Source: Alphaproteobacteria bacterium
GTDB lineage: Bacteria; Pseudomonadota; Alphaproteobacteria; UBA8366; Aestuariispiraceae
NCBI GenBank assembly: GCA_030065235.1
Contig: JASJDC010000001.1
Coordinates: 124,001 to 188,000, forward strand
Length of the DNA: 64,000 bases
Direction of reading: 5' to 3'
The notes beneath the pieces are model-generated. The model searched no databases. It had not been told where the DNA came from and worked only from the letters and a program-made list of their open reading frames with translations. The translations under genes were made by a program, and so were the position numbers. This document shows positions 7,425 to 45,128 of the stretch, one piece after another. Each line of letters opens with the position of its first letter. The first letter of the stretch is position 1.

Positions 7425-8917
7425 CCGGCCGCATCCCGAACCGATTTGAGCGCGCCGTAGAGCGTCTTATACTGCGGGAAAATCTGTTCATAGGCGGCCA
7501 TGTGATCGGCGTTGGGCTCGACCGTGTCGGTCACCCGAACCATCGCCGCGACGCCGTCTTCGATCGATGGATGCAAACCCGCGCCGACGGCCGCGAGGAT
7601 GGCGCCGCCGAGCGCTGGCGCGTCGGCGACTTCGGTCAATTGCATCGGGGCCCCCAGCGTGTCGGCGTGAATCTGGAGCCAGAGCGGCGAGTTCGTAGCG
7701 CCGCCGGCGACCACCAAGCGCTTCGCCGTGAAGGCGTCTCCAAAATTCTCGACGATCAGCCGCGTGCCCAAACAGACGCCTTCAAGCATCGCGCGGAAGA
7801 CATGGGCGGGTTCGTGCTTCAGGGTCAGTCCAGTGATCGCGCCCCGCGACAGGGGATCGGTGTAGGGCGTTCGGTTTCCTTGGAAATGATCCAGCACCAG
7901 GACGCCCTCGGCGCCGGGAGGCAGGGCCTCTGCGGCGGCGTTCAGGGCTTCGAAACTGGTCTGGTCGGCGAAATGCCGCTTGAACCAGGCGATCACCGAT
8001 CCGGTCGAGGTCTGGCCGCCCTCGATAATCGGTTTGCGGGGATAGACGGCGTCCATATAGGTTCCCCAGACGCCTGGCGCATGCACCTCGCGGTTGGCGA
8101 CGCCAAGCTGCAGGTGAGACGAGCCGGTGATCAGGCCCATCTCGCCGGGTTCGATGACGCCGAGGCCGATCATGGCGATGAACGCGTCGGCGCCGCCTTG
8201 CACGACCGGGGTGCCGGGATCCAATCCAAGGTGCTGCGCGGCGGCGCTTGTCAGCCCGTCGATCACCTCGCCCGGCCGACAGATTCTTTGCGGCCATTTC
8301 TGCGCCAGGTCCTCAAGCCCTATTGCGGCGAGGAGGGAGGTCGGCGCGCCGCCGTGATCGGTCTGATAGTGCCACCGCACGGCCATATTGTTCAGCGACG
8401 CCGCCCAGACCCCTGTCAGATGATAGGTCATATAGTCCTGGTACTCGCCGATCTTGGCGGCTTTGGCGTATATCTCGGGCTGGTTGCGCTTGATCCAGAG
8501 CGCTTTCGGCAGCATCCATTCTGCTGAGACCGGGCCGGCGCCGCCGCTATTGATCCGCAGGGCCGGGTCGCCGGTTTCGGTGATGATCCGGGTCTCCTCC
8601 GAAGACCGCACATCCATCCAGATCATCGCCGGTCGCAGCGCTCGCCCCTCGGCGTCTAGCGCCACGACGGAACAACAGGTCGTGTCAACGCAGAGCGCCC
8701 TTATCTCCGCGCCGGAAAGGTTTGCTTTTTCCAGGACGCCATTCACCGAAGCGCCCAGCGCCGACCACCAGTCATCCGGGTCTTGGTGGGCCCAGCCGGG
8801 TTGGGGAAAGTCCGTCTTATACGTGGTCGCATGTGACGCGACCGGCCGTCCTTCCAGATCGAAGATGAAGGCGCGCAGGCTCTCGGTGCCGCCGTCTATG
8901 CCCAAAACATAGGCCAT
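7421..8917 (-). CDS. FGGY-family carbohydrate kinase (pentulose/ribulokinase-like)
   Basis: The 498-residue protein starts with the ATP-phosphate loop YVLGIDGGTESLRAFIFD and has the actin-like FGGY fold. Other visible family features are ALCVDTTCCSVVALD, MIWMDVRSS, VVQGGADAFIAMIG, TGSSHLQLG and, near the end, RLVVAGGATNSPLWLQI with the adenosine-site glycines. The 'GIDGGTES' start is common in ribulokinase-like and other ketose kinases; the sugar cannot be assigned from sequence. The gene follows the class II aldolase by 2 bases and overlaps E1alpha by 4, so kinase and aldolase probably act in sequence: phosphorylate a ketose, then split it to dihydroxyacetone phosphate and an aldehyde. Confidence 0.85.
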   Translation of the reverse strand: MAYVLGIDGGTESLRAFIFDLEGRPVASHATTYKTDFPQPGWAHQDPDDWWSALGASVNGVLEKANLSGAEIRALCVDTTCCSVVALDAEGRALRPAMIWMDVRSSEETRIITETGDPALRINSGGAGPVSAEWMLPKALWIKRNQPEIYAKAAKIGEYQDYMTYHLTGVWAASLNNMAVRWHYQTDHGGAPTSLLAAIGLEDLAQKWPQRICRPGEVIDGLTSAAAQHLGLDPGTPVVQGGADAFIAMIGLGVIEPGEMGLITGSSHLQLGVANREVHAPGVWGTYMDAVYPRKPIIEGGQTSTGSVIAWFKRHFADQTSFEALNAAAEALPPGAEGVLVLDHFQGNRTPYTDPLSRGAITGLTLKHEPAHVFRAMLEGVCLGTRLIVENFGDAFTAKRLVVAGGATNSPLWLQIHADTLGAPMQLTEVADAPALGGAILAAVGAGLHPSIEDGVAAMVRVTDTVEPNADHMAAYEQIFPQYKTLYGALKSVRDAAG

Positions 8918-14731: not shown

Positions 14732-15859
14732 CTAATGGACCAAATCCTCCGTCTCCGGATCGAAGACCATGACATTCGCCGGATCATAGGCCAACTCGAC
14801 GATCTCGTCGGGCGCAGAGCGCGTTTCCGGCGGCGCCAAGGCCCGAAACGAGACCGGGCCTCGATGCGCGGTCAGGATCGAGCGTTCGCCGAGATACTCG
14901 TTGATCGAGACTTTAGCCGATAGGGTCGCCGTTGTCTGTCCGGATGTCGCATCGGACGCGGTCGCCGGCGTGAGGTTCTGAGGCCGAATGCCGGCGATGA
15001 AACGGGCGCCGCCATGCGCCTTGACCGCGGCCCGGGTCTTCTCGCTCAAGTGCAGCGTGAACTTGGCGTCGTCGACCGCCAGGCGCAGGTCGCCGTCACT
15101 CTCGACCGCCTGCGCCTGGAAGAAATTCGTCGGCGGCTCGCCGATAAAGTCGGCCACAAAGACGTTGGCGGGCGCGTTGTACAGCGTGTTGCGGTCGCCG
15201 ACCTGCTGCAGCCGCGCGTTTGACATCACCGCGACACGATCGGACAGGGCCAGCGCTTCGACCTGATCATGGGTCACATAGATCATGGTGCGGCCCAGTT
15301 CGCGATGCAGACGTTTCAGATCAAACAGCATCTGGAATTTCAGATGCGCGTCCAGATGACTCATCACTTCGTCCAGGATGAATACGTCAGGCTCGCGGAT
15401 CAGCGCGCGGCCCAGCGACACGCGCTGCTGCTGTCCGCCCGACAAGGCCGGCGGATAGGCGTCGAGCAGGTCGGTGATGCGCAGCAACTCGGCGACGTTT
15501 TGAGCGCGTTTTTTCTGTTCGTCGGCGGAAAACCCGCGGACCTCGAGCGGGAAGGCGAGATTCTGCTCAACCGTGAAATTGGGATAGAGCGCATAGGTCT
15601 CGAACGCCATCGCCACGTTGCGATCCTGGGGTTCGAGCGCCGAGACGTTGCGATCGTCGAAATGAACCGAGCCGGAGGAAATGCTCTCCAGACCGACGAT
15701 CATGCGTAGGGTCGAAGTCTTGCCGCAGCCGGACGGGCCGAGCAGGGCGACGAATTCGCCGTCGTCGATTTTGAGGTTCAAGTCCTGCACGGCGTGCACG
15801 GCGCTGGGCCCTTCGCCATAGATCTTGTTGACGTTCGTGAGGGTGACGTCCGCCATCAC
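14732..15859 (-). CDS. Sugar ABC transporter ATPase (UgpC/MalK-like), second copy
   Basis: The 375-residue protein has Walker A GPSGCGKTS, signature LSGGQQQRVSLGRA, Walker B VFILDEVMSHLDAHLK and switch histidine in YVTHDQVEAL. A C-terminal TOBE/regulatory region starts near residue 240, as in MalK-type ATPases of carbohydrate importers. In Walker B the usual DEPLSNLD reads DEVMSHLD: Val replaces Pro. It overlaps the first ATPase gene by 4 bases, and the two probably form a heterodimer driving the two permeases. Paired ATPase genes in one CUT1-type operon are less common than a single shared MalK. Confidence 0.87.
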   Translation of the reverse strand: MMADVTLTNVNKIYGEGPSAVHAVQDLNLKIDDGEFVALLGPSGCGKTSTLRMIVGLESISSGSVHFDDRNVSALEPQDRNVAMAFETYALYPNFTVEQNLAFPLEVRGFSADEQKKRAQNVAELLRITDLLDAYPPALSGGQQQRVSLGRALIREPDVFILDEVMSHLDAHLKFQMLFDLKRLHRELGRTMIYVTHDQVEALALSDRVAVMSNARLQQVGDRNTLYNAPANVFVADFIGEPPTNFFQAQAVESDGDLRLAVDDAKFTLHLSEKTRAAVKAHGGARFIAGIRPQNLTPATASDATSGQTTATLSAKVSINEYLGERSILTAHRGPVSFRALAPPETRSAPDEIVELAYDPANVMVFDPETEDLVH

Positions 15860-16965
15860 GCTGACCCCGCCAGGTTGCGCCCTGTGACGGCGTCGAAAAA
15901 GTGGAAGCGGTCGGTCGAGACAGCCAAGGTGACCCGGTCGCCGGCGTCATAATGCGCTTCCGGGTCGGTGAGTGCGGTCAGACGCACGCCGCCCGATTTC
16001 GCGAGCATGATCCCGCTCGCCCCCAGCGGTTCGAAAATATCGACTTCGGCTTCGATCGTGTCGGCGGCGGTCTGCCCGTCTTTGACCGGGCGCAGGAATT
16101 GCGGCCTTAGCCCAACCGTGACGTCGTCTTTGGTGTAGCGCTCGAAGAGCGGCGCGTGACTGTCGTCAATGCGAAAGCTCAACGTTCCCTCGGCGGCGTC
16201 GACGCGCATCCCGCCGTCGCGCCGTTTCAGCCGCGCCGCAATGACGTTGATCGTCGGCTGTCCCATATGTCTGGCGACGGCGATATTGTCCGGCCGCTCG
16301 AACAGATCGCGCGGCGCGCCCACCTGTTCCAACTGGCCGCCGGCGCCCATCACCCCGATGCGGTCGCCCAGCGACAAGGCCTCAGCATAGTCGTGGGTCA
16401 CGTAGACCGTGGCGACCCTGCGCAGATCTTCGAGCGCATGGAACTGAGTCCGCAATTCATGGCGGATCTTGGCGTCGAGATGGCTGATCGGCTCGTCGAG
16501 CAGAAACACTTCCGGGTCGGCGACCAGGGTCCGTCCCAAGGCGGTGCGCTGCTTCTGGCCGCCGGATACTTCGCCCGGCTTGCGTTGGAGCAGCTGCTCG
16601 ATCCGGAGCAGATTTGCGACCGAGCGCACGCGTTCGTCGATCTCCGAGGTCGCGGCCTTGCGCGCCCGCAACGGGCTCGCGATATTCTCGTAGACCGTCA
16701 TATGCGGATACAGCGCGTAGGACTCGAAGGTCATGGCGATCCGCCGTCGATAGGGCGGCAGGGCGGTCATGTCGCGGCCGCCGACCCGCACCACGCCCTG
16801 GTCCGGCGTCTCTAGCCCTGAAATCAGCCGCAGCAGCGTGGTCTTGCCGATGCCGGACGGGCCGACAATGACGAAAAACTCGCCTTCCTCGACCGAGAAA
16901 CTCAGATCGTCGATGACCGGGAAATCCCAGCCTTTGCAGATCCCTTCGACCTCCAGCCGCGCCAT
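15856..16965 (-). CDS. Sugar ABC transporter ATPase (UgpC/MalK-like), first copy
   Basis: This has 369 residues. Walker A is GPSGIGKTTLLRL, the signature VSGGQKQRTALGRT, Walker B VFLLDEPISHLDAKIR and the switch region YVTHDYAEALSLGD. A C-terminal TOBE-like domain runs from about residue 240. It begins 4 bases after the MalG-type permease gene and overlaps the next ATPase gene by 4. The canonical DEPISHLD here contrasts with the altered motif in its partner, so the two nucleotide sites may differ in activity. Confidence 0.88.
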   Translation of the reverse strand: MARLEVEGICKGWDFPVIDDLSFSVEEGEFFVIVGPSGIGKTTLLRLISGLETPDQGVVRVGGRDMTALPPYRRRIAMTFESYALYPHMTVYENIASPLRARKAATSEIDERVRSVANLLRIEQLLQRKPGEVSGGQKQRTALGRTLVADPEVFLLDEPISHLDAKIRHELRTQFHALEDLRRVATVYVTHDYAEALSLGDRIGVMGAGGQLEQVGAPRDLFERPDNIAVARHMGQPTINVIAARLKRRDGGMRVDAAEGTLSFRIDDSHAPLFERYTKDDVTVGLRPQFLRPVKDGQTAADTIEAEVDIFEPLGASGIMLAKSGGVRLTALTDPEAHYDAGDRVTLAVSTDRFHFFDAVTGRNLAGSA

Positions 16966-16969
16966 CCGG

Positions 16970-17857
16970 TCAGCCTTTCACAACGCCGAGGGAAAGGCCG
17001 CGCACCATGTAGCGGCGCAACAGGATGAACATCGTCACCGGCGGGATCATCGCGATCAGGGAAAACGCCATCTGCAGGTTCCACAGGGTCTGGGAGCCGT
17101 GCGTGAAGGTCGGAATCACGATCGTGTAGGTGCGGACGTCGGTGCCGACGAACAGATTTGCGAACAGATACTCGTTCCAGGCGAATATCCAACACAGCAT
17201 CGCGACGGAGATCATACCGGGCAGCACCAAGGGCAGCGTCACCCGAACGAAGGCTTTCATCGGCGTCCAGCCGTCGAGATAGGCCGCCTCTTCGATTTCG
17301 CGCGGGGCGTCTCGGAAGAACACCATCATCAGCCAGGTCGCCAGCGGCAGGTTGAAGACCAGATAAAGAATGATCAGCGACAGATGGCTGTCGGTGCCCC
17401 AGGGCGTGTTGTCGAACAGGAAGAACATCGGCACCAGGATCGCCACCGGCGGGAACATTCTGTTGGACAGGATCCAAAAGGCCAGGTTCTCGCCGCCCGC
17501 TTGTTTCGGGAACCGTGCAAAGGCGTAGCCGGCCAGCGATCCGAGGAACAGCGCCAGCGCGGTGTTGGCGGTGGCGATGATGAATGAATCGACCAATGCG
17601 TTGAAATTGGTCGCTTCGGCGAACACGCCGGCGAAATTCTGCGGAAACCACTCGTTCGGCCAGAAGGTCGGGACGGTCAGGTTCGTCTCCGCCGCCGATT
17701 TAAACGCGGTGATGACCATGAAATAAAGCGGAAACAGTGTGAACAGCAGCCACAACGCCATAAAGGCCAGGAACAAGTAGCGCACGGCGCGCCATCGGTC
17801 CGCGACGGTCGATGTCTGTTGAAGCTGCGCTTCGGAATTTGCGGTCGTAACGGCCAT
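16970..17857 (-). CDS. Sugar ABC transporter permease, MalG type
   Basis: The 295-residue inner-membrane protein has about six predicted helices. The EAA loop that docks on the ATPase is EIEEAAYLDGWTPMKAFVRVTLPLVLPG (near residues 188-215). The N-terminal helix VRYLFLAFMALWLLFTLFPLYF is typical for the MalG group of CUT1 importers. The start has weak spacing information only; an ATG 21 bases after the preceding permease stop was used. It pairs with the upstream permease to form the translocation path. Confidence 0.88.
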   Translation of the reverse strand: MAVTTANSEAQLQQTSTVADRWRAVRYLFLAFMALWLLFTLFPLYFMVITAFKSAAETNLTVPTFWPNEWFPQNFAGVFAEATNFNALVDSFIIATANTALALFLGSLAGYAFARFPKQAGGENLAFWILSNRMFPPVAILVPMFFLFDNTPWGTDSHLSLIILYLVFNLPLATWLMMVFFRDAPREIEEAAYLDGWTPMKAFVRVTLPLVLPGMISVAMLCWIFAWNEYLFANLFVGTDVRTYTIVIPTFTHGSQTLWNLQMAFSLIAMIPPVTMFILLRRYMVRGLSLGVVKG

Positions 17858-17878
17858 GTACCCTGTTCCCAGTCCCGC

Positions 17879-18901
17879 TCAGGCGAAGCCTTGCGCCTTC
17901 ATCACACGCTTCATGTATTTCAGGAAAAGTGTGATCAGGATGGCGGAGATGGCGAAAATGACGATCGCGTAAGCGGCCGCCTCGCCGATGGCGAATTCGC
18001 GAATGCCGCGCTGGAACGCGATGTAGGTCGGCAGTTCCGACGACTGGGCCGGGCCGCCCGAGGTCATGACATAGACCAGGTCGACGAATTTGAACGCGTC
18101 GGTGAAGCGTAGAATGAAGGCGATGGCGATGACTTCCTTCAGCATCGGCAGGGTCACCCGCCGCATCACTTTCCACTGGCTCGCCCCGTCGACGCGGGCC
18201 GCCTCATAAACGGCGGGCGGCAGCGACACGCGGCCGGAATAGACGATCAGCAAGGGCAGGGCGGTCCAATTCCACGTATCGGCGATGATGATCGACCACA
18301 GGGAAACGCCAGCATTGAACCATTCGATATGCGCCGAGATGAGACCCAGATCCAACAACGCCTGATTCACCGCGCCGTTCGACGGCGTCAGCAGGAATCG
18401 CCAAAGCGTGCCGACAATCGACGGCGGCAGCATCATCGGCAAGACCATCAGGATCAGAACCGTCGTGCGAATTGCGTTGCTCTTGACGAATTCGTACAGA
18501 GTGAGCGCCAGGACGGTGCCGAGAATGACCTGAAAAACGGCGCCGAACGTCAGATACTGGACCAAATGCACCAGCGAATCCTGGAACCGGTCCGACGAGA
18601 GCACCGTGGCGTAGTTTTCAAAGCCGATATAGCTGTGGTTCCCCATGAACAATCCCTGGATATTCGTATCCCGCAAGGAATGGTAGAACATCCAGATCGT
18701 TGGATAGATCACGATGGCCAGCAGCACCAAGACCGGCACGCCGACCAGGAAGATCGGCACCCAGCGCGACACGATCAGAGGTCGCGTGGTTTTTTTGTTC
18801 TGGAACCAGGCCGGATAGGTGTCCGGATCGCCGCGCACAATATCGCTCACGGCGCGCGCTCCGGCGCCGCCTGACGGCTTTCCATTCTTATTGAGACGCA
18901 T
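17879..18901 (-). CDS. Sugar ABC transporter permease, MalF/UgpA type
   Basis: With ATG at 18901 the protein has 340 residues, a hydrophilic N-terminal tail of about 40 residues and six to seven helices beginning with VPIFLVGVPVLVLLAIVIYPTIW. The EAA loop is VYEAARVDGASQWKVMRRVTLPML. A further 35 in-frame codons up to 19006 exist but have low coding character and would run into the shared promoter region, so they were left out. It is the first gene of the importer operon and is divergent from mtnK, with 189 bases between. Confidence 0.85.
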   Translation of the reverse strand: MRLNKNGKPSGGAGARAVSDIVRGDPDTYPAWFQNKKTTRPLIVSRWVPIFLVGVPVLVLLAIVIYPTIWMFYHSLRDTNIQGLFMGNHSYIGFENYATVLSSDRFQDSLVHLVQYLTFGAVFQVILGTVLALTLYEFVKSNAIRTTVLILMVLPMMLPPSIVGTLWRFLLTPSNGAVNQALLDLGLISAHIEWFNAGVSLWSIIIADTWNWTALPLLIVYSGRVSLPPAVYEAARVDGASQWKVMRRVTLPMLKEVIAIAFILRFTDAFKFVDLVYVMTSGGPAQSSELPTYIAFQRGIREFAIGEAAAYAIVIFAISAILITLFLKYMKRVMKAQGFA

Positions 18902-19090
18902 CCCATGAGAAGCGGCGCCTTTTAGCGTTTTATCGGCCTCTTGCGAGGTCCTCCCTTGGTGGAACGATATCCGCCGCGTTTTGCAAAAGTCAAACATTCT
19001 TGACAATTGAATGACCGCTCATGAACCTGTTCTTCAGGTCGCCGTCCGTTAAGAGATGGTCGCCTAAGACAGTCCGGGAGGAACGTAAAA
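18902..19090. promoter_or_regulatory. Divergent promoter region of importer operon and mtnK-mtnA
   Basis: This gap separates the two arms of the carbohydrate island. It holds an AT-rich stretch near 18980-19015 with TTGACA at 19000-19005, but no good -10 at 17 bases. TTGTCAA occurs here (minus strand) and again upstream of the SorC-family gene near 22486-22499. This may reflect a shared operator, but the match is short. No gene is seen. Confidence 0.4.
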
Positions 19091-20386
19091 ATGAGCGCGC
19101 CGCAGTCGCCCGCCGCACGCGACGCCTACGAGCCTTTGACGATCGACAGTCTCGAAATACGGCTGGCTGCAGTGGCGGCGCTGCGTCAGGCCGTCGGGCC
19201 GTCGCCATGGCGGTGCCGCGAAGTGGGTGACGGCAATCTAAATCTGGTTTTCATCGTGGAAGGCGCCGCGGGGGCCGCGGTGGTGAAGCAGGCGCTGCCC
19301 TATGTGCGTTTGGTCGGCGATAGCTGGCCGCTGTCGCTCACCCGCGCCTTTTTCGAGTTCAACGCCCTGACCCGACAGGCCCGACGCGACCCCGGTCGCG
19401 TTCCCCAGATCCTGCACTATGATCAGGATCAGGCCCTGATCGTCATGGAGTATTTGCAGCCGCACCTGATCCTACGGAAGCACCTGATCGCCGGGGTGGT
19501 CCTGCCGGGTCTCGCGAAGGATATGGGGCTGTTCTGCGCCCGCACCTTGTTTCGCGGTTCCGATCTGTCGATGCCGACCGCAGAGAAGAAGGCCGATGTC
19601 GCGCTCTTCGCAGGCAATACGGAACTCTGCGACATCACGGAGAATCTGGTCTTCACCGACCCGTATTTCGATGCGCCGATGAACCGGCACACGACGCCGC
19701 AGCTCGACGGTCTCGTCGCGTCGCTGCGCGCCGATCAAAGCTTGAAGATCGAGGCGCAGACGCTGAAGTCACAGTTCTGCAACAACGCGGAGACGATGTT
19801 GCACGGCGATTTGCATACCGGCTCGATCATGGCGACCGACAGCGATACGCGGGTGATCGACCCGGAATTCGCCGTCTACGGGCCGATGGGGTTCGATCTG
19901 GGCATGCTGCTCGCAAATTTCCTGATGGCCTATTATGCGCAGGATGGTCATGCCGAACGGCCCGGCGCCCGCGACGCTTATAAAGCGTGGATCTTGGAGG
20001 TCGTTTCCGAGATATGCGACGTCTTCGAGGCGGAGTTTTCGGCCCTATGGCGCGCCGAACGCGACGGCATCCTCTATCCCGATGCCCTGTACGCGGATCA
20101 GGGCCACGAAATGGCGTCGGAACGCGCGCTGCGCCAGACCATCGAGCGCGTCTGGCGCGACGCGATGGGTTTCCTCGGGGTCGAAATCCACCGCCGCATC
20201 CTGGGCCTCGCCCATATCGAGGAATATGAAAGCATCGAAGATCCCGACCGTCGGGCTCCCTGCGAGGCGCGCGGTCTCGAACTCGGACGCGCGGCGGTTC
20301 TCAACCGGCGCACGCTCAGCCTGTCCGGCCTTCTGGCGCTGACGCGCCGTCTCGACGATGTCCCGACCGAGAGGATCCTGAAATGA
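19091..20386 (+). CDS. mtnK: 5-methylthioribose kinase (MtnK)-like
   Basis: The 431-residue length agrees with Mtn[10 protein letters not shown] (47-55) is the glycine-rich loop, [22 protein letters not shown] (68-89) is typical of Mtn[11 protein letters not shown] holds the catalytic Asp240, and [14 protein letters not shown] has Mg-binding Asp257. MtnK phosphorylates C1 of 5-methylthioribose; homologues in disposal clusters act on 5-deoxyribose. The start follows GGGAGGA by 7 bases. Its stop overlaps mtnA (ATGA), so kinase and isomerase are coupled. The divergent sugar importer suggests exogenous uptake of the substrate, unlike housekeeping methionine salvage. Confidence 0.9.
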
Positions 20387-21477
20387 AAGTGAACGGCGTT
20401 TCGTATCGGTCGATTTGGTTCAACACCGACTCACAAACCGTTGAGATCATTGATCAACGGTGGTTGCCGCATGAATTCCGGGTGGTTCCCCTTGTGTCGC
20501 GGGACGATTTCGCCACCGCCATCCGCGACATGTGGGTGCGCGGCGCGCCTTTGATCGGGGCGACGGCGGCTTTCGGCATGGCGGCCGAGATCGCCCGCGA
20601 TCCCTCCGACGCGCATATCGCCGAGGCTTGGGAGGTCTTACACGAAACACGACCGACGGCGATCAACCTGCGCTGGGCCCTGGACCGAATGCGCGCGCAT
20701 GTCACGCCGCTGCCGCTGGACGCGCGGGCCGCCGCAGCCCATGCGCTGGCGCTCGAAATCGCCGATGAAGATGTCGAGATCAATGCGGCGATCGGCCGAA
20801 ACGGGCTCGACCTGATCAAGAAGGTGGCAGCGGAGAAGCCGGCAGGCGATCCGGTTAAGGTGCTGACCCATTGCAACGCCGGCTGGCTCGCGACGGTCGA
20901 TTGGGGGACGGCGACCTCGCCGGTTTATCACGCGGTCGAGGCGGGAATCGACATGCATGTCTGGGTCGATGAGACGCGGCCGCGCAATCAGGGCGCCGGG
21001 CTGACGGCTTGGGAGATGAACAGCCACGGCGTGTCCCACAAGGTCATTGTCGATAACGCCGGGGGCCATTTGATCCAGCATGGCGACGTCGATCTCGTGA
21101 TCGTCGGCACCGACCGTACGACCGCCCGCGGCGATGTTTGCAACAAGATCGGCACCTATCTGAAGGCGCTGGCCGCTTATGACAACGATGTGCCTTTCTA
21201 TGTCGCTTTACCGTCGCCGACGATCGATTGGACGGTCTCGGACGGCTTGCGCGAGATCCCGATCGAAGAGCGCGCGGGCGAAGAAGTGACCAAGGTTTGG
21301 GGTAAGACGGAGGCGGGCGATGTGCTTCAAGTTCAGGTGACGCCCGACGGGTCGCCTGCCGCCAACCCAGCCTTCGATGTGACGCCCGCGCGTCTGGTGA
21401 CCGGCTTAATCACCGAGCGCGGCGTCAGCGCCGCCTCCGCCGAGAGCCTGGCGGCGATGTTCCCCGAAAAGGCCTAA
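20383..21477 (+). CDS. mtnA: Methylthioribose-1-phosphate isomerase (MtnA)
   Basis: This 364-residue protein belongs to the MtnA/eIF2B-like isomerases. Conserved features are [18 protein letters not shown] (50-67), active-site Cys164 in [10 protein letters not shown], Asp244 in [19 protein letters not shown] and [10 protein letters not shown]. It converts methylthioribose-1-phosphate (or 5-deoxyribose-1-phosphate) to the ribulose form. No mtnB, mtnC or mtnD gene of the full methionine salvage pathway is in the window, whereas a class II aldolase is. A DHAP-shunt route (aldol cleavage of the ribulose-1-phosphate) is therefore the favoured reading. Confidence 0.92.
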
Positions 21478-21488
21478 TTGGCCTGGCT

Positions 21489-22466
21489 TTAATCCGACTC
21501 GAGCAGCGCCCGAGCGGTCTTCACGCTGGTGACCGCGTGGGTCGCGAGGCCGCCGCGCAGAGCCGCCAGCATCGATCGCGTGCGCTCAGGGCCGGTTGAG
21601 ACCAACAGGCGCAGATCCGCCTTGGCGAGATCGCTCAACGGTATGCCGATGATCCGCGCGTCCAGAGGTCCGGGGATCGGCGCGCCGTCGGGATTGATGA
21701 ACCGCCCGCAGACGACCCCGACCGCCCCGCGCGCGGCGTACCATTGCACGTCCTCCGGGCTCGCGACGCCGCTTGTCGCGACATGACTGTCCGCCGCGCT
21801 GGCGCCGGCCGCGAAAATGACCTTGTTGCAGGTCGCGAGCGCGTCCAACTGATGTTGGATGATCGGCTCTTTGCGCAAAATCTCGGCGACGGCGGGGTCG
21901 CTTAAGACCGCCGGCGCATGCAGATTGATGCAGGCCGCGCCCAAGCGTTGCGCCAGCAGAGTCGAGCAAACCTCTGCGGTGAAGCCGTAAGGCGTCGCCA
22001 TGGACCCCAGCAGTTGGATGACGGTGAGATCGGCGATTTGGGTCGGGGCCGTCGCCCGGGCGACTTCGTAGACATTGCGCCCCCAACTCACGCCCAGACG
22101 GTCTCCGGACGCCAACAGGCGCGGCAACCAGGCCGCCGCGCCGCGCGCGACTCGCAGCAGCGCTTCGTCTTCGTCGACCGTCGCGTCCGGGACCAGATAG
22201 GCGGCGCGCAGATTGAACCGCGCACAAAGTTCGGTGACCAAGCGATGCCGGGTGAAAGCGTCGGGATCGAGCGAAATGGTGACCAGACCGCGCTCGCGCG
22301 CTTCCTGCAGATAGTTGACGACGCTCGCCCTGGACAGGCCCAAGCGGTCGGCGATGTCGCTCTGATTCAGACCGTCATGATAGTACATCCAAGCGGCCTC
22401 GACGATGACGTCGTCGCCGCTGATTTGACCGCTGGCGCGGCGTATCCCGGTCGCTTTCCCACCCAT
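21489..22466 (-). CDS. SorC/DeoR-family sugar-responsive transcription regulator
   Basis: The 325-residue protein has an N-terminal helix-turn-helix (about 34-58, QSDIADRLGLSRASVVNYLQEA). A sugar-phosphate-isomerase-like effector domain follows (GDRLGVSWGRNVYEVA, VIQLLGSMATPY, IFAAGASAADSHVA, VGVVCGRFINPDG), as in SorC/CggR regulators that sense phosphorylated sugars. It ends 11 bases after mtnA in convergent orientation and is the only regulator in the carbohydrate island, so it is the natural candidate for its control. The 124 bases between it and puuE hold a TTGACA-like element on the minus strand but no clear gene. Confidence 0.87.
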   Translation of the reverse strand: MGGKATGIRRASGQISGDDVIVEAAWMYYHDGLNQSDIADRLGLSRASVVNYLQEARERGLVTISLDPDAFTRHRLVTELCARFNLRAAYLVPDATVDEDEALLRVARGAAAWLPRLLASGDRLGVSWGRNVYEVARATAPTQIADLTVIQLLGSMATPYGFTAEVCSTLLAQRLGAACINLHAPAVLSDPAVAEILRKEPIIQHQLDALATCNKVIFAAGASAADSHVATSGVASPEDVQWYAARGAVGVVCGRFINPDGAPIPGPLDARIIGIPLSDLAKADLRLLVSTGPERTRSMLAALRGGLATHAVTSVKTARALLESD

Positions 22467-26028: not shown

Positions 26029-26910
26029 ATGAGCCGCCAGACAATCGACGACTTGAACGCCATGGATGCGGCCGGGTTTGAGCAAGCGCTGGCGAATGTC
26101 CTGGAACTGGCGCCTTGGGCGGCGCGCGCCGCTGCGTCTCAGCGGCCATTCAACGGGGTCACGGCTCTCTATGATGCGCTCTGTGCAGCGGTGCGCGCGG
26201 CGCACGATGCGCGACGGCTCGACCTGCTTAACCAACACCCGGACTTGGCCGGAAAGGCCGCCATCGCCGGCGACCTCACATCCGAATCACGGGCCGAGCA
26301 GGGGAGCGCCGGATTGGACCGGCTGTCAGAGGCGGAGTTCTCAGCCTTCTCAGAACTCAACGCGGCCTATCGGCGCAAGTTCGGCTTCCCCTTCATCATC
26401 TGCGTAAAGCGCCAAACCAAAGACGCGATTCTAGAGGCGTTCGAAGCGCGAAAGAACAACGACCCGGCGGCGGAGCGCGAGACCGCGGAGCGTGAGGTTC
26501 TACGCATCGCCGCCCTGCGCCTCACCGATCTTGTCGAGGGACCCGATCCGCTGCCGGTGCATGGCCGTCTTTCCACCCATGTGCTCGACACCAAAAACGG
26601 CGTGCCTGCGCAGGGCGTGAAGATCACGCTGATCGAACGCGCGGCGCGCGGCGAGTCCCGAATCCTGTTTGAAGGCGAGACCAATACGGACGGCCGCACT
26701 GACCGACCGCTGATCGGCGGCGCGCCGGTACCGATCGGCCGCTACGAACTGCGCTTTGATATCGGCGACTATTTCGGAGAGGAGCCGGACCAGGGGCCGC
26801 CATTTCTGGATGTCGTGCCGATCCGATTCGGCGTCTCTGAGCCTGAAGCCAACTATCATATCCCGCTTCTGGCGAGCCCGTGGAGCTACACGACCTATCG
26901 CGGGAGTTGA
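26029..26910 (+). CDS. Bifunctional OHCU decarboxylase (UraD) - 5-hydroxyisourate hydrolase (UraH) fusion
   Basis: Residues 1 to about 168 are UraD, with the catalytic His70 in NQHPDLAGKAA and the Glu in ESRAEQGSAGL. Residues about 176-293 are UraH, a transthyretin-like domain with the N-terminal LSTHVLDTKNG, PIRFGV and the C-terminal signature YRGS. UraH opens 5-hydroxyisourate and UraD decarboxylates the product to S-allantoin, so one chain completes urate conversion after PuuD. The order UraD-UraH is the same as in plant allantoin synthase and is found in other bacteria. Confidence 0.93.
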   Translation: MSRQTIDDLNAMDAAGFEQALANVLELAPWAARAAASQRPFNGVTALYDALCAAVRAAHDARRLDLLNQHPDLAGKAAIAGDLTSESRAEQGSAGLDRLSEAEFSAFSELNAAYRRKFGFPFIICVKRQTKDAILEAFEARKNNDPAAERETAEREVLRIAALRLTDLVEGPDPLPVHGRLSTHVLDTKNGVPAQGVKITLIERAARGESRILFEGETNTDGRTDRPLIGGAPVPIGRYELRFDIGDYFGEEPDQGPPFLDVVPIRFGVSEPEANYHIPLLASPWSYTTYRGS

Positions 26911-26958
26911 GACCGTACGGCTATTCGGCGCCGTTTTATTGGGCAGTTTCGCTGCAAC

Positions 26959-26973
26959 GCACAAAGTTTGTGC
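26959..26973. promoter_or_regulatory. NtrC-like palindrome upstream of a sigma-54 promoter
   Basis: GCACAAAGTTTGTGC is a perfect 7-1-7 inverted repeat. It keeps the GCAC-N7-GTGC spacing of NtrC enhancer sites and lies about 85-100 bases upstream of a -24/-12 element, a usual enhancer distance. The NtrC assignment is inferred. Confidence 0.55.
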
Positions 26974-27057
26974 CGTTTCGGCCTAAAAAGGAGTCGTCAT
27001 GTCCGGGTAAAGGTCTGATACTCCTGTATAAATCATGGCTTGTGCAGGCGCTGTTGT

Positions 27058-27072
27058 TGGCACGCGCCTTGC
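27058..27072 (+). promoter_or_regulatory. Sigma-54 (RpoN) -24/-12 promoter of the purine ABC-xdh run
   Basis: TGGCACGCGCCTTGC matches the consensus TGGCACG-N4-TTGC exactly, with GG and GC 10 bases apart. It lies 64 bases before the binding-protein start, in a 225-base gap that has no gene. It implies nitrogen-regulated transcription by an NtrC-type activator. Confidence 0.8.
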
Positions 27073-27135
27073 CATAAGAGACGAATCGACCGGCCAAGAA
27101 TATCGCTGGTCCGAGGAACAGTGGGAGATATGGCA

Positions 27136-28155
27136 ATGAACATGAAAACCCTTCGCAACGCCGCCATCGGCGCGGCTGGCGCGCTGGCCGCCGCAACGAC
27201 AGGCGCCGCGGCCCAGACCGAAGTGAAATTCGCGCTCGATTGGAAATTCGAGGGTCCGTCGGCGCCCTATTTCGTGGCCATCGACAACGGCTATTTTGAA
27301 GAGCAGGGGCTCGACGTCACCATCGATTCCGGCCCGGGTTCGGTACAGGGGATCGCGCGGGTCGCCGCCGGCGTCTATCCGCTCGGCTTCATGGACATCA
27401 ATTCGCTGGCGAAGTTCCTCGATCAAAATCCGGGCGCGCCGGTCACCGCAATCACCATGGTCTACAATGTCCCGCCCTTCGCCATCGTCTCGACGACGCA
27501 GCGGGGCGTCGCTGCGCCCAAAGATCTGGAAGGCAAAATCCTCGGCGCGCCGGCCCCCGACGGCGCGTACGCCCAATGGAAGGCGTTTGTGAAGGAAAAC
27601 GACATCGATGCGTCCAAAGTGACGATCGAGAATGTCGGCTTCCCGGTGCGCGAGCCGATGCTGGCGAGCGGCGAGGTTGATGCGATCACCGGCTTCTCCT
27701 TCTCATCTTTCTTCAACCTGCGGCGGAACGGCATCGCGGCCGAGGACATCAAGATCATGATGATGGCCGACTACGGGCTCGACCTCTATGGCAACGCGAT
27801 CATGGTCAATACCGACTTCGCCAAAGAAAACCCCGACGTGGTGAAAGGCTTCGTCGCCGCCGTGGTGAAAGGCGTTCAGGCCACCGCAGCGGATCCGGAG
27901 ACGGCGATCAAGTCGGTTATGGCCCGGAACGAGATCGCCGATGAAGCGCTGGAGCTTGAGCGGCTGAAGATGGCGCTGCGCGACAACATCATGACCCCGG
28001 CCGTGATGGCGGACGGGTTCGGCGGCGTCGATATGGATCGGCTCGCGAAATCGATCGATCAGATCGCGGTCACCTACGACTTCACCAATCGGCCGACCAT
28101 CGAACAGGTCTTCGATTCCTCCTATCTGCCGCCGGCGGCCGATCGGAAGCTTTAG
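27136..28155 (+). CDS. ABC transporter substrate-binding protein, NMT1/ThiY-like
   Basis: The 339-residue protein starts with a Sec signal peptide (MNMKTLRNAAIGAAGALAAA... cut after about AAAQ). The mature part has the NMT1 pattern: VKFALDWKFEGPSAPYFVAIDNGYFEEQGLDV, then GSVQGIARVAAGVYPLGFMD and a hydrophobic hinge. Members bind pyrimidines, taurine, sulfonates or purine-related compounds. Three in-frame ATGs lie close together; 27136 was chosen for its 8-base spacing from GGGAG. Its place between purine enzymes suggests a purine, urate or ureide ligand. An inverted repeat follows the stop. Confidence 0.85.
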   Translation: MNMKTLRNAAIGAAGALAAATTGAAAQTEVKFALDWKFEGPSAPYFVAIDNGYFEEQGLDVTIDSGPGSVQGIARVAAGVYPLGFMDINSLAKFLDQNPGAPVTAITMVYNVPPFAIVSTTQRGVAAPKDLEGKILGAPAPDGAYAQWKAFVKENDIDASKVTIENVGFPVREPMLASGEVDAITGFSFSSFFNLRRNGIAAEDIKIMMMADYGLDLYGNAIMVNTDFAKENPDVVKGFVAAVVKGVQATAADPETAIKSVMARNEIADEALELERLKMALRDNIMTPAVMADGFGGVDMDRLAKSIDQIAVTYDFTNRPTIEQVFDSSYLPPAADRKL

Positions 28156-28168
28156 TCCACCTTTCCAA

Positions 28169-28206
28169 GGCCGGTTGAGCGCGGCGGTCGCCGCACTCGG
28201 CCGACC
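28169..28206 (+). terminator. Strong hairpin after the binding-protein gene (partial terminator/mRNA stabiliser)
   Basis: About 18 bases on each side (GGCCGGTTGAGCGCGGCG and its near complement) can pair with a few G-U or mismatched positions. It is followed only by TTCTTA, so it is likely a partial stop that keeps binding-protein mRNA in excess. Confidence 0.5.
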
Positions 28207-28222
28207 TTCTTAGGGTTCCGCC

Positions 28223-29005
28223 ATGAATGTCGTGACCTTTGACAATGTCCGGCTGGATTACGCCGGCGCGAAGGCGGCGGTCACTGCGGTCGACGGGCTT
28301 AACCTGTCGGTCGACGAAGGCGAATTCGTCGCCGTGGTCGGCCCGTCCGGATGCGGTAAATCCACCCTGATGAAGCTGACCACCGGACTGGTCGCGCCGA
28401 CGGCGGGCGCGGTTTCGGTGGAGGGGGAATTGGTGACCGGCCCGGTGAAGATCGCCGGCATGGCCTTTCAGAACCCGAACTTGCTGCCCTGGCGGACGGT
28501 TCTCGACAATGTGCTGCTGCCGATGGAGATCGTCGAGCCGCACCGGGGCCGTTTCCGCCGCGACAAAGCGCTCTATGCACAGAAGGCAGAGGCGCTGTTG
28601 AAGACTGTCGGCCTGGACGGGTTTGGCGAGCGTTTCCCGTGGGAGCTGTCGGGCGGGATGCAGCAGAGGGCGTCGCTCTGCCGGGCGCTGATCCACGAGC
28701 CCGACCTGCTGATGCTGGACGAACCTTTCGCCGCGCTTGACGCCTTCACCCGCGAGGAACTGTGGTGCGTGCTGCGCGACCTGTGGACCCGTCTGAAATT
28801 CACCGTGATCCTGGTGACACATGATCTGCGCGAGGCGGTCTTTTTGGCCGACACGATCCATGTGATGAGCGCGCGGCCCGGAAAGATCGTGATGACCAAG
28901 CAGGTGGATCTGCCGCGCCCCCGCGACCTGGAAATCGGCTTCGATCCGAAATTTGTCGATATCGTGCATGAGCTGCGCGGCAAGATCGCGGAGGTCCGGC
29001 AATGA
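28223..29005 (+). CDS. ABC transporter ATPase, SsuB/TauB/NrtD-like
   Basis: This 260-residue ATPase shows Walker A GPSGCGKSTLMKL, Q-loop AFQNPNLLPWRTV, signature LSGGMQQRASLCRA, Walker B LLMLDEPFAALD and switch VTHDLREAVFLAD. The FQNPNLLPWR Q-loop is characteristic of the nitrate/sulfonate/taurine/pyrimidine importer group. It overlaps the permease gene by 4 bases and follows the binding protein by 67. Confidence 0.9.
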   Translation: MNVVTFDNVRLDYAGAKAAVTAVDGLNLSVDEGEFVAVVGPSGCGKSTLMKLTTGLVAPTAGAVSVEGELVTGPVKIAGMAFQNPNLLPWRTVLDNVLLPMEIVEPHRGRFRRDKALYAQKAEALLKTVGLDGFGERFPWELSGGMQQRASLCRALIHEPDLLMLDEPFAALDAFTREELWCVLRDLWTRLKFTVILVTHDLREAVFLADTIHVMSARPGKIVMTKQVDLPRPRDLEIGFDPKFVDIVHELRGKIAEVRQ

Positions 29006-29769
29006 GCCAGGCCATGATCGAACGGTTGGCGCCGTGGGCCTTCACCCTCGGGCTCTTTGTCCTGTGGGAATTGACGGTCCTGGTTTTCGATATCAGCCAA
29101 TTCATCCTGCCGGCGCCGTCTGCGATCTTTTCGGCGATGTTTGAGTATCGGAAGCCGGTTTACGAAAACTCCCTGGTGACGCTCTGGACGACGGTCGCTG
29201 GTTTCGCTTTGGCTGTGGTGTTTGGCGTTTTGCTCGGGCTGTTCATCGGCTGGTCCCGCACCATCTATCGCGGGCTCTATCCGGTGATGGTCGGCTTCAA
29301 TTCGATCCCGAAAGTCGCGGTCGTACCGATCCTGGTGCTCTGGTTCGGCGTCGGCGAAATCCCGGCAATCATCACCGCGTTCCTGATTTCCTTTTTCCCG
29401 ATCGTCGTGAATGTGGCGACCGGTTTGGCCACGACCGAACCCGAATTGGAGGATGTGTTGCGGGCGCTTGGCGCCAAGAAGCTCGACATCATGCTGAAGG
29501 TCGGCATTCCGCGCGCCCAGCCTTACTTCTTTGGTTCGCTGAAGGTCGCGATCACGCTGGCCTTTGTCGGATCGGTCGTGTCGGAGACGGTCGCCGCGAA
29601 TGCGGGCATCGGCCACATGATGGCTACAGCGGGGTCGAACTTTCAGATACCGCTGGTCTTCGCCGGCCTGATCGTACTCGCGGTCGAAGGGATCGCCATG
29701 TATGCTTTGTTCGCCTATATCGAAAGCCGGACGACCAAATGGGCGTTCCGCTCCTCGATGGGTGTTTAA
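29002..29769 (+). CDS. ABC transporter permease, SsuC/TauC-like
   Basis: The 255-residue inner-membrane protein has about six helices. The ATPase-docking loop is ELEDVLRALGAKKLDIMLKVGIPRAQP (near 150-175), and PVMVGFNSIPKVAVVPILVLWFG is typical for this permease group. It completes the NMT1-type importer and is followed by xdhA after 36 bases, so uptake and xanthine oxidation are probably co-transcribed. Confidence 0.9.
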   Translation: MSQAMIERLAPWAFTLGLFVLWELTVLVFDISQFILPAPSAIFSAMFEYRKPVYENSLVTLWTTVAGFALAVVFGVLLGLFIGWSRTIYRGLYPVMVGFNSIPKVAVVPILVLWFGVGEIPAIITAFLISFFPIVVNVATGLATTEPELEDVLRALGAKKLDIMLKVGIPRAQPYFFGSLKVAITLAFVGSVVSETVAANAGIGHMMATAGSNFQIPLVFAGLIVLAVEGIAMYALFAYIESRTTKWAFRSSMGV

Positions 29770-29805
29770 GCCAAGCTCGGTCAATCATTCAGCGCCTGAG
29801 GGTCG

Positions 29806-31236
29806 ATGGGGGGATCGGTGTTTTTGTTGAACGGGACGGTCGAGCGCACGGACGGCGTTCCCCCGACCACGACCCTGTTGGACTATCTTCGGCTCCAGGC
29901 CGGCCTGACCGGAACCAAGGAAGGCTGCGCCGAGGGCGATTGCGGCGCCTGTACGGTGATGATCAGCAAGCGGGATGCCGACGGCGCGCTGCGCCATCAT
30001 GCGGTGAACAGTTGCCTGATGACTATTGGCCAAGCGGCTGGTCTGGCGGTGACGACGGTCGAGGGCGTCGGCGGCCCGGATCGGCTGAGCCCCGTGCAAC
30101 AAGCGCTGGTCGAGGGCGACGGCGCGCAATGCGGTTACTGCACGCCCGGCTTCGTGATGGCGATGACGGCCTTCGCCAAAGGCGGCGAAGAGGCGACCGA
30201 AGGGACGATCCATGACATGTTAGCGGGGAACCTGTGCCGCTGCACCGGCTATCGCCCAATCGTCGAGGCCTGCATCGAAAGCGTCGGCGCCGATATTGAG
30301 GCGGACGACCCCAGTGCGGCGGACGCCCTGGATGAATGCGCAGCGCCGGCCTGCCTCTCGGGTCGCGGACAGGTCATGCATGTTCCTCGCAGTTCGAGCG
30401 AACTCTCGGCATTGTTGGCGGAGGCGCCGGACGCCTGGATCCTCGGCGGCGGCACGGATATGGGCCTCCGGTTCTCGAAAGGGCGCGAGTCGCCGCCGAC
30501 CGTGATCTCGACCGGGCGCGTCGGGGAGATGCGGTTGTTGGAGGCGGGGGAGGACGGAGGCCTGCATTTTGGCGGCGCCGTCACCTATACCGAGCTTCTG
30601 CCGCATCTGACCCGCCTCTATCCCGCCTTCGCCGATCTGGTGCGCCGGATCGGCTCCCGGCAGATCCGCAATCTTGGGACGATCGCCGGCAACCTGGTGA
30701 CGGCCTCGCCGATTGGCGACACGATCCCGTGCCTGATGGCGTTGGGCGCCGAAGTCACCTTGGCGTCCGGGACTGGGCGACGGCGCATACTGGTCGAGGA
30801 TTTCATCACCGGCTATCGAACGACCGACCTGCGGGCCGGCGAGTTCATCGAAAGCGTCTCCATTCCACCGCCCGGCGATGGTGCGCTCTTTTACGCCTAC
30901 AAGATTTCGAAACGTTTCGATCAGGACATCTCGTCGGTCGTCTTGGCGGCGACGTTGACGGTTACAGGCGGTGTTGTGGCCGAGAGCCGCCTCGCCATCG
31001 GCGGCGTCGGTCCGCGCACCCTGCGGTTGGAACGGACCGAGGCTGCGCTGAAAGGCGGCGCCTGGACCGAGGAAGCGGTTGAAGCGGCGTTGGCGATCCT
31101 CGATGCAGAGATCGCGCCGATGGACGATTTCCGCGCGTCGGCCGACTATCGCCGCGCTGTCTCGGGCGCGCTGTTGCGGCGTCTCTATCTCGAGAGCCAG
31201 ACGCCGGACTATGATCTCCGGTTGGAGGCGCTATGA
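29806..31236 (+). CDS. xdhA: Xanthine dehydrogenase small subunit XdhA (2Fe-2S and FAD)
   Basis: The 476-residue subunit has a plant-type ferredoxin domain (GCAEGDCGACTV) and a second 2Fe-2S domain (CGYCTPGFVM, GNLCRCTGYRPI). An FAD domain follows (GGGTDMGLRFSKG, SRQIRNLGTIAGNLVTASPIGD). It passes electrons from the molybdenum subunit to NAD. ATG at 29806 gives MGGSVFLLNG; a GTG at 29818 preceded by GGGGGG is an alternative. It overlaps xdhB by 4 bases. No xdhC cofactor-insertion gene is in the window. Confidence 0.95.
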   Translation: MGGSVFLLNGTVERTDGVPPTTTLLDYLRLQAGLTGTKEGCAEGDCGACTVMISKRDADGALRHHAVNSCLMTIGQAAGLAVTTVEGVGGPDRLSPVQQALVEGDGAQCGYCTPGFVMAMTAFAKGGEEATEGTIHDMLAGNLCRCTGYRPIVEACIESVGADIEADDPSAADALDECAAPACLSGRGQVMHVPRSSSELSALLAEAPDAWILGGGTDMGLRFSKGRESPPTVISTGRVGEMRLLEAGEDGGLHFGGAVTYTELLPHLTRLYPAFADLVRRIGSRQIRNLGTIAGNLVTASPIGDTIPCLMALGAEVTLASGTGRRRILVEDFITGYRTTDLRAGEFIESVSIPPPGDGALFYAYKISKRFDQDISSVVLAATLTVTGGVVAESRLAIGGVGPRTLRLERTEAALKGGAWTEEAVEAALAILDAEIAPMDDFRASADYRRAVSGALLRRLYLESQTPDYDLRLEAL

Positions 31237-33599
31237 GCAAGCACGCGCCCTCTCAAGCGGGCATTGTCGGCGGCGTCCACCAGGCGATGCGGCATGACAG
31301 CGCCGTCGGGCATGTCACGGGCGGGGCGCTCTATATCGACGATATCCCAATGACGCCCAACACGTTGCACGCGGCGTTGGTGCTGAGCGAGAAGGCGCAT
31401 GCGGCGATCCTGGAGATCGATATCGAGGCGGCGTTGGCTTTGGAAGGGGTGGTGGCCGTTTATACCGCGGGCGATATCCCGGGCCGAAACCAGATCGGCC
31501 CGATCCAGTCCGACGAGCCGGCCTTGGCGGACGGCTTGGTCGAGCATATCGGCCAACCCATCGCCATCGTGATCGCCGCAACGCTTGACCAAGCGCGCGC
31601 CGGGGTAAAGCGGGTCTCGGTCGCCTATGATGAGCGCCCCGCCATTCTTTCAATCGAAGAGGCCTTGGCGGCGGATCAGATGGTCTCGGCGAAGCCGGTG
31701 ATGGCGCGCGGCGATGTCACAGCGGCCCTAGAAGCCGCGCCGCACCGCCTGCAAGGCGAATTCCGCAATGGCGGCCAGGACCATTTCTACCTGGAAGGGC
31801 AGGTGGCGCTGGCCATTCCCGGAGAGGCAAGCGGGCAAGCGGGCGAGATGCTCATTCACAGCTCGACGCAGCATCCCACCGAGGTTCAGCATGGCGCCGC
31901 GCATGTTCTGGGAAGGCCCTTCGCCGCGATCACCGTTCAGGTCCGGCGCATGGGTGGCGCGTTCGGCGGCAAGGAAAGTCAGGCGACGATCATCGGCGCG
32001 CTCGCGGCCCTGGGCGCGGCCAAGACCGGGCGCCCGGTCAAGCTGCGCCTGCCGCGCGATGATGACATGGTCGCGACCGGCAAACGCCACCCGTTCCTGT
32101 TCCGGTACGATGTCGGGTTCGACGGGCAGGGGCGCATCCATGGGCTGGACTTAATGCTGGCGGCGAATGGCGGCCATGTCGCCGACCTGACAGCGCCGGT
32201 CCTGACCCGCGCGCTCTGCCACGCGGACAATTGCTACTATATTCCGGCCCTGAAATTCTCCGGCGCGCCGTGCAAGACCAACACGGTGTCGAACACCGCC
32301 TTTCGCGGCTTCGGCGGGCCGCAGGGGATGTTGGCGATCGAGGGGGTCATCGACCGCATCGCCGCCCATCTCGGCGTCCCGAACGAGGATATCCGACGCG
32401 CGAACTACTATGATTGGGAAGGCGCGCGCACCGTGACGCCTTATGGTATGGCGGTCGAGGACAATATCATCGACCGCGTCAATGCGGAGCTCGAAGCGGC
32501 GGCCGATTGGGACGCTTGGCGGGAAGAGATCGACGCGTTCAACGCGTCCAATCCTGTTCTGAAGAAGGGGCTGGCGCGGATGCCGATCAAGTTCGGCATC
32601 TCCTTCAACCGACCGACCCTTAATCAGGCCGGCGCGTTGGTGCATGTCTATACCGACGGCAGCGTTCATTTGAACCATGGCGGGACCGAGATGGGGCAGG
32701 GGCTCTATCAGAAAGTCGCCCAGGTCGCCGCCGAAGGCTTCCAGATCGATATCGGCAATGTGCATATTTCGGCCACCGCGACGGACAAGGTGCCCAACAC
32801 CTCGGCGACGGCGGCCTCGTCCGGCTCGGACCTGAACGGCATGGCGGCGCTGAACGCGGTCGAGCAAATCAAGACCCGGATGGCCGCGGTCGCGGCCGAC
32901 CTGTTCGACGCGCCGGTGGACGAAATCCTGTTCGCGGAGAATCGGATCTTCGCCGGCAACCGCTCGATCCCGTTTCCCGACCTGGCGCAGAAATGCTGGG
33001 AGCGCCGGGTCTCGCTGTCCGCCGTCGGCTACTATAAGACGCCGGGCCTGACGTGGGACTTCAAGAACAATACCGGCGCGCCCTTCTACTATTTCACCTA
33101 TGGCGCGGCGGCGTCGGAAGTCGCCATCGACACGCTGACCGGCGAATGCCGGGTCTTGCGGACCGAGATCGTGCAGGATTGCGGCAGCAGCTTGAATCCG
33201 GCGATCGATTTGGGACAAATCGAAGGCGCCTTCGTGCAGGGCATGGGCTGGCTGACCTGCGAGGAATTGTGGTGGGACGCAGGTGGGCGGCTGCGCACGC
33301 ATGGTCCCTCGACCTACAAGATCCCCGGCAGCCGCGACGTCCCGCCAATCTTCAACACCCGGATCTTGACCGACGCCGCCAACCCAAAGCCGACGATTTT
33401 CCGCTCGAAAGCCATCGGCGAGCCGCCTTTCATGCTGGCGATCAGCGTCTGGCTGGCGATCAAGGACGCGGTGGCGAGCCTGGCCGGACCTGAGGCGCGC
33501 CGCCATACCCATGTCGAACTGGATGCGCCGGCGACGCCGGAACGCATCCTCGCCGCGGTCAACCGGCTCCGCGGCGCTATGCCGGCCGCCGCCGAATAA
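31233..33599 (+). CDS. xdhB: Xanthine dehydrogenase large subunit XdhB (molybdenum cofactor)
   Basis: The 788-residue subunit carries molybdopterin-contact motifs MGGAFGGKESQA, FRGFGGPQGM and QGMGWLTCEELWW. The active-site glutamate is in KAIGEPPFML near residue 730. It oxidises hypoxanthine and xanthine to urate in the cytoplasm with XdhA. The early HDSAVGHVTGGALYIDDIP is usual for bacterial XdhB. The guanine deaminase gene follows after 17 bases. Confidence 0.95.
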   Translation: MSKHAPSQAGIVGGVHQAMRHDSAVGHVTGGALYIDDIPMTPNTLHAALVLSEKAHAAILEIDIEAALALEGVVAVYTAGDIPGRNQIGPIQSDEPALADGLVEHIGQPIAIVIAATLDQARAGVKRVSVAYDERPAILSIEEALAADQMVSAKPVMARGDVTAALEAAPHRLQGEFRNGGQDHFYLEGQVALAIPGEASGQAGEMLIHSSTQHPTEVQHGAAHVLGRPFAAITVQVRRMGGAFGGKESQATIIGALAALGAAKTGRPVKLRLPRDDDMVATGKRHPFLFRYDVGFDGQGRIHGLDLMLAANGGHVADLTAPVLTRALCHADNCYYIPALKFSGAPCKTNTVSNTAFRGFGGPQGMLAIEGVIDRIAAHLGVPNEDIRRANYYDWEGARTVTPYGMAVEDNIIDRVNAELEAAADWDAWREEIDAFNASNPVLKKGLARMPIKFGISFNRPTLNQAGALVHVYTDGSVHLNHGGTEMGQGLYQKVAQVAAEGFQIDIGNVHISATATDKVPNTSATAASSGSDLNGMAALNAVEQIKTRMAAVAADLFDAPVDEILFAENRIFAGNRSIPFPDLAQKCWERRVSLSAVGYYKTPGLTWDFKNNTGAPFYYFTYGAAASEVAIDTLTGECRVLRTEIVQDCGSSLNPAIDLGQIEGAFVQGMGWLTCEELWWDAGGRLRTHGPSTYKIPGSRDVPPIFNTRILTDAANPKPTIFRSKAIGEPPFMLAISVWLAIKDAVASLAGPEARRHTHVELDAPATPERILAAVNRLRGAMPAAAE

Positions 33600-33616
33600 C
33601 CCGGTTTGGAGCGCCC

Positions 33617-34102
33617 ATGGCCGATCTCAGCCCCGACGATCTGGAGTTTCTCGAACACGCCGCGCGGCTGTCGCTCGAGGGCTGCGAGAACCGCGCCGGC
33701 GGTCCGTTCGGCGCCGTGATCGTCAAGGACGGCGCCGTGATCGCCGAAGGCTGGAATCAGGTCACCAGCGGCAACGATCCGACCGCGCATGCGGAGGTTG
33801 TGGCGATCCGAAACGCCTGTGCGGCGCTTGAGACATTCGATCTGTCCGGCGCGACGATCTATTCCAGTTGCGAGCCCTGTCCGATGTGTCTGGGCGCGGT
33901 CTATTGGGCGCGGCTTGACCGGCTGATCTACGCCAACACCCGCGATCAGGCGGCGGCGATTGGTTTCGATGACGCGGTAATCTACGACGAAATCCCGAAA
34001 CCGCCCAGCGGCCGCACCCTGCCGACGCTTCAAGTCGACAACCAAACCGCGCAGGAGGCCTTCGCCCTTTGGGACCGGATGGCCGACAAGGTGGCGTATT
34101 GA
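33617..34102 (+). CDS. guaD: Guanine deaminase (cytidine-deaminase fold)
   Basis: The 161-residue protein has the zinc-deaminase motifs HAEVVAIRNAC (His58 ligand, Glu60 proton shuttle) and PCPMCLGAVYWAR (Cys88, Cys91). The C-terminal tail with NQTAQEAFALWDRMADK resembles the Bacillus-type GuaD rather than tRNA deaminase TadA. It would turn guanine into xanthine for XdhAB. It ends 23 bases from the convergent ureG. TadA is the alternative, but the context favours GuaD. Confidence 0.85.
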   Translation: MADLSPDDLEFLEHAARLSLEGCENRAGGPFGAVIVKDGAVIAEGWNQVTSGNDPTAHAEVVAIRNACAALETFDLSGATIYSSCEPCPMCLGAVYWARLDRLIYANTRDQAAAIGFDDAVIYDEIPKPPSGRTLPTLQVDNQTAQEAFALWDRMADKVAY

Positions 34103-44926: not shown

Positions 44927-44941
44927 GCAACAGCCGCGCCA
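44927..44941 (-). promoter_or_regulatory. Sigma-54-like -24/-12 promoter of the urt-ure operon
   Basis: Read on the minus strand, TGGCGCGGCTGTTGC matches TGGCAC-N5-TTGC except for one base in the -24 box, and GG and GC are 10 bases apart. It lies about 48 bases before the urtA start. The rest of the 250-base gap (to 45128) is AT-richer and holds no gene; I could not find a convincing NtrC dyad in it. Confidence 0.65.
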
Positions 44942-45128
44942 CTTTCTCCATCGTTGCGCCGTCTCGATTTTGTGTTTTGTTTCAGATAGATGACAGAGAA
45001 GTGGAGAATTTCGCGCTCTTTTGCGCTTTGAGCCGTGCACAAGAATGAAGCACAAAAAATAGGCGAGCCTAGATAATAGGCAGAGTAAACCGTCTTAGAG
45101 CGCGCGACGCCCCGCGCGCCGACGACGC

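Follow-up and report, generated by a model that had tools for sequence, protein, structure and literature searches.

A probable NtrC-sigma-54 promoter in front of an ABC importer and xanthine dehydrogenase operon of an alphaproteobacterium

The NtrC-sigma-54 promoters described in enteric bacteria include those of glnA, glnK and glnHPQ, with an NtrC site that reads TGCACC(A/T)4TGGTGCA (PMC4987338). In Burkholderia cenocepacia H111 the NtrC/sigma-54 regulon includes xdhAB, urate oxidase, urease and ABC importers (PMC5491218), and in Ralstonia solanacearum rpoN1 is required for growth on xanthine, with a xanthine permease being a likely NtrC target (PMC4676750). The predicted NtrC regulons of Rhizobiales and Rhodobacterales, as given in the main text of one study, include urea genes (urt, ure); this text names urea, nitrate and other genes rather than xdh, and the word 'xanthine' is absent from it (PMC5343134). 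The NtrC proteins of Caulobacter and Rhodobacterales have been found to lack the GAFTGA loop, and for the Caulobacter and Rhodobacter capsulatus orthologs regulation has been reported at sigma-70 promoters (PMC10274813).

The locus described here lies in a 64,000-nucleotide stretch of an alphaproteobacterial genome, referred to below as the window. Its operon spans positions 27130-34102, in the order substrate-binding protein, ATPase, permease, xdhA, xdhB and deaminase (Table 1), and is preceded on the same strand by puuE (allantoinase), an M20 peptidase gene, a gene for a puuD/urate-oxidase-domain protein and a uraD/hydroxyisourate-hydrolase fusion gene. The stop codon of this fusion gene (26910) and the ATG at 27130 are separated by a gap of 219 bases. 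An initial annotation of the window had placed in this gap a perfect GCAC-N7-GTGC palindrome about 85-100 bases upstream of an exact -24/-12 box, and both elements are present exactly as claimed: the palindrome GCACAAAGTTTGTGC occupies 26959-26973 and is separated from the box TGGCACGCGCCTTGC by 84 bases (99 start to start), and the -24 GG and -12 GC elements within the box are correctly spaced. The same annotation regarded this as the complete layout of an NtrC/sigma-54 promoter in front of the importer and xdhAB; the promoter assignment stands, while the layout has two NtrC-like sites rather than one, the site farther upstream having been missed. The assignment is supported by the regulatory proteins encoded in the same genome, by a lineage-specific model of the NtrC site and by conservation across orthologous operons, and on this evidence the operon promoter is very probably an NtrC-sigma-54 promoter responding to nitrogen limitation.

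Table 1. Promoter elements and operon genes in the window (positions are those of the window; site centres are relative to the predicted start).
Feature	Position	Strand	Details
NtrC-like site 1, CGCCGTTTTATTGGGCA	26929..26945	+	14.2 bits; 6th best of 63,984 window positions; centre about -147
NtrC-like site 2, CGCACAAAGTTTGTGCC	26958..26974	+	12.9 bits; 8th best in window; centre about -118; contains the palindrome
Possible IHF site (weak), TATCAGACCTTTA	27008..27020	-	one mismatch to WATCAANNNNTTR; about 5% of shuffles match this well
Sigma-54 -24/-12 box, TGGCACGCGCCTTGC	27058..27072	+	exact consensus match (TGGCACG-N4-TTGC); predicted transcription start about 27084
ABC substrate-binding protein, NMT1/THI5 family (operon gene 1)	27130..28155	+	PF09084, E 5e-43; NCBIfam SsuA/TauA-like
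ABC ATPase, NitT/TauT type	28223..29005	+
ABC permease, NitT/TauT type	29002..29769	+
xdhA, xanthine dehydrogenase small subunit	29806..31236	+	TIGR02963, 488 bits (cut-off 467)
xdhB, xanthine dehydrogenase molybdopterin subunit	31233..33599	+	TIGR02965, 1120 bits (cut-off 849.5)
Zinc deaminase, probably guanine deaminase	33617..34102	+	PF00383; guanine specificity inferred from context
Second sigma-54 box, TGGCGCGGCTGTTGC, before urtA (urea ABC importer)	44927..44941	-
Three adjoining or overlapping NtrC-like sites upstream of urtA	45036..45082	-	15.2-16.7 bits

The promoter shares with its enteric counterparts a 17-bp dyad with a GC-N11-GC core, two such sites with centres some 100-150 bp upstream of the start, a near-consensus -24/-12 box and an NtrC that carries GAFTGA. 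It differs in the inner bases of the half-sites, which follow the consensus of this lineage (TGCCTA..TAGGCA or GCACAAA..) instead of the enteric TGCACC..GGTGCA, and in its target, which is an importer-xdhAB operon. Pathway and regulators are alike in B. cenocepacia H111; that organism is a betaproteobacterium in which control was shown by mutant expression analysis, whereas the present case is made from sequence. What it shares with the alphaproteobacterial regulons named above is urtA, which is found in the window too and has a promoter of this kind.

P-II gene promoters are classic NtrC targets. The P-II gene (glnB/glnK) loci of the 13 other genomes in the family were used as the training source for a model of the lineage's NtrC site, a matrix of 14 dyads of the form GC-N11-GC with A+T-rich centres, located upstream of sigma-54 boxes, with the consensus TGCCTAAAATTTAGGCA. 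No sites from the window or from its genome were used in training. The model is not fully blind, the dyad form having been chosen after the glnB, glnK and urtA promoters of this genome had been viewed, and its independence is partial because the 14 sites were pre-selected by the GC-N11-GC, A+T-rich-centre filter. In a gap of such size about 0.004 matches this good are expected, and two were seen, their centres 29 bp apart. One P-II promoter site, TGCACAAAAATTGTGCA (L136), is nearly identical to the reported palindrome. The top eight matches in the window include the two at the operon promoter and three at urtA. Matches at 8899-8915 (16.7 bits), 4854-4870 (16.4 bits) and 470-486 (13.1 bits) have no sigma-54 box nearby.

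Neither the palindrome nor the box would be sufficient by its count alone. GCAC-N7-GTGC occurs twice in the window, at the level of chance (1.8 expected), and 55 times in the genome against 36 in the reversed control; the exact box is found at one place in the window and at three in the 4.18 Mb genome, against five for the reversed control, and is thus not enriched genome-wide. It is the combination of the elements, their position and their conservation that exceed chance. When both strands of the window were scanned for an NtrC-like site and a sigma-54-like box no more than 200 bp apart, only two promoters were obtained, that of the operon and that of urtA, the first gene of the urea importer cluster, and their arrangements match. 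Elsewhere in the genome, the literal palindrome was sought beside a sigma-54 box among 48 other sites, of which two had a weak box (L082, within a gene, and L104). An exact box at L011 was considered as the promoter of a flagellar gene; this was not confirmed, no Pfam match being obtained for the gene.

Conservation was examined in orthologous loci. Of the 385 genomes sampled from the class, 29, this one included, have the orthologous binding-protein gene, and 80 named orthologous loci were compared, using sequences from genome contigs and random windows from the same loci as controls; as these loci are related, they are not 80 independent observations. Sigma-54 boxes scoring at least 13 were found in 61 of the 80 promoters, compared with 4.9% of control windows, and boxes scoring at least 13.7 in 72.5%, compared with 3%. 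NtrC scores of at least 11 were reached at 28.8% of the loci and in 2.8% of control windows. Because the random control windows are mostly coding, the upstream sequences themselves were also shuffled for comparison, and the mean best NtrC score of the 61 box-bearing loci was 8.24, against 3.06 for the shuffles (SD of null mean 0.38). NtrC sites are thus strongly enriched overall, with only about 30% of the box-bearing loci having one of at least 11 bits, and the literal GCAC-N7-GTGC was not found in the orthologous promoters. That all these elements should have come together by coincidence in a high-GC genome is extremely unlikely given the conservation of the box and the two model sites in one short gap, even though the palindrome by itself is about as common in the window as chance predicts and the genome-wide count of the exact box does not exceed that of the reversed control.

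Several orthologous operons have the genes for the binding protein, ATPase and permease followed by xdhA and xdhB, and the ortholog L174 carries a pair of NtrC-like sites spaced 30 bp apart, arranged as at the operon promoter. Two Rhodoplanes genomes have two paralogs of the binding protein each (L163/L220 and L164/L219), and every one of the four has both a sigma-54 box and NtrC-like sites. Among the orthologs that share the gene order around the promoter, the closest (L022, L023 and L024) have a perfect box that follows immediately on the stop codon of the upstream gene, and a matrix scan gave no convincing NtrC-like site at these three loci; the enhancer may be located within the upstream gene, or a different activator may be used. 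The SAR116 orthologs L224, L225 and L226 keep the importer-xdhAB operon and have no -24/-12 box despite the presence of rpoN in their genomes, and the operon must therefore be controlled differently there. Absence of sigma-54 was ruled out as the cause of box-less orthologs, since 21 of the 22 genomes tested have rpoN, those of box-less SAR116 among them.

The genome analysed here encodes both regulators. It has one rpoN gene (PF04552, E 3e-69; TIGR02395 above cut-off) and an NtrC of the TIGR01818 equivalog family (693 bits, cut-off 558.6) with an intact GAFTGA loop, which matters because the NtrC of Caulobacter and Rhodobacterales is without it; the NtrX of this genome lacks GAFTGA. FlbD-like and LuxO-like activators of sigma-54 are also encoded, together with an unclassified one, and one of these (the LuxO-like or the unclassified protein, for example) could act at the box in response to purines or another signal and not to nitrogen, as the close orthologs with a box and no NtrC-like site might suggest. 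This is unlikely, as both upstream sites fit the P-II-trained NtrC model and urtA is arranged alike, and a tblastn search with the genome's five activators found none beside the orthologous operons examined.

The operon might instead be transcribed mainly by read-through from puuE-M20-puuD-uraD, which run in the same direction and belong functionally with xdh, or from an unseen sigma-70 promoter, the box being decoration. We consider this very unlikely. The 219-base gap contains a terminator-like hairpin of 5 pairs (26917-26934), located 3' of the uraD fusion gene and overlapping NtrC-like site 1, no match to a sigma-70-like promoter was found in 26850-27200, and the box is kept in most orthologs, many of which have different upstream genes.

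If the promoter is, as we favour, controlled by NtrC and sigma-54, phosphorylated NtrC would under nitrogen limitation occupy the two upstream sites, which are about three helical turns apart, and oligomerise there. It would then reach the sigma-54 RNA polymerase at the box by DNA looping, perhaps aided by IHF, a candidate site for which is located between the NtrC-like sites and the box, and, using ATP, open the promoter. The importer, xanthine dehydrogenase and the deaminase would then be made from a transcript that begins at the predicted start. NtrC binding, the transcription start and nitrogen control at this promoter are all predictions from the DNA and protein sequences.

The substrate of the importer would be a purine, judging by the gene neighbours. 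Purine genes adjoin the importer in several orthologous loci and not in all, many orthologous importers are not beside xdh, and the closest solved relatives of the binding protein (PF09084 family) include 3ix1, which binds formyl-aminopyrimidine, a thiamine pyrimidine. In the window, urease and urea-importer genes face the purine genes, and purine nitrogen could be passed on to ammonia by way of the urate, allantoin, urease and urea-uptake genes of this neighbourhood. Also adjoining the purine genes are methylthioribose kinase and isomerase genes, a SorC/DeoR-type regulator and a sugar-type ABC importer (15856-22466), probably for methylthioadenosine or nucleoside salvage.

Control of xanthine dehydrogenase by sigma-54 and NtrC is on record for Burkholderia, and the promoter is thus a well-supported example of a type of switch that is already known. 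This bacterium probably obtains nitrogen by degrading purines when it is short of ammonium, given a standard nitrogen-starvation promoter that is conserved in most of the related operons examined. Such a promoter would tie purine uptake and oxidation to nitrogen limitation in alphaproteobacteria whose NtrC keeps the sigma-54 loop; the lineage model of the NtrC site can be used for regulon prediction, and a common, as yet unassigned family of NMT1/THI5-type importers gains a testable function. We propose more tentatively that xanthine dehydrogenase and a NitT/TauT-type importer, for a purine or for a product of purine breakdown, may together form an NtrC-sigma-54 unit that is widely conserved in alphaproteobacteria and has not been described before. 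If so, nucleobase nitrogen would be a standard component of the alphaproteobacterial response to nitrogen limitation.
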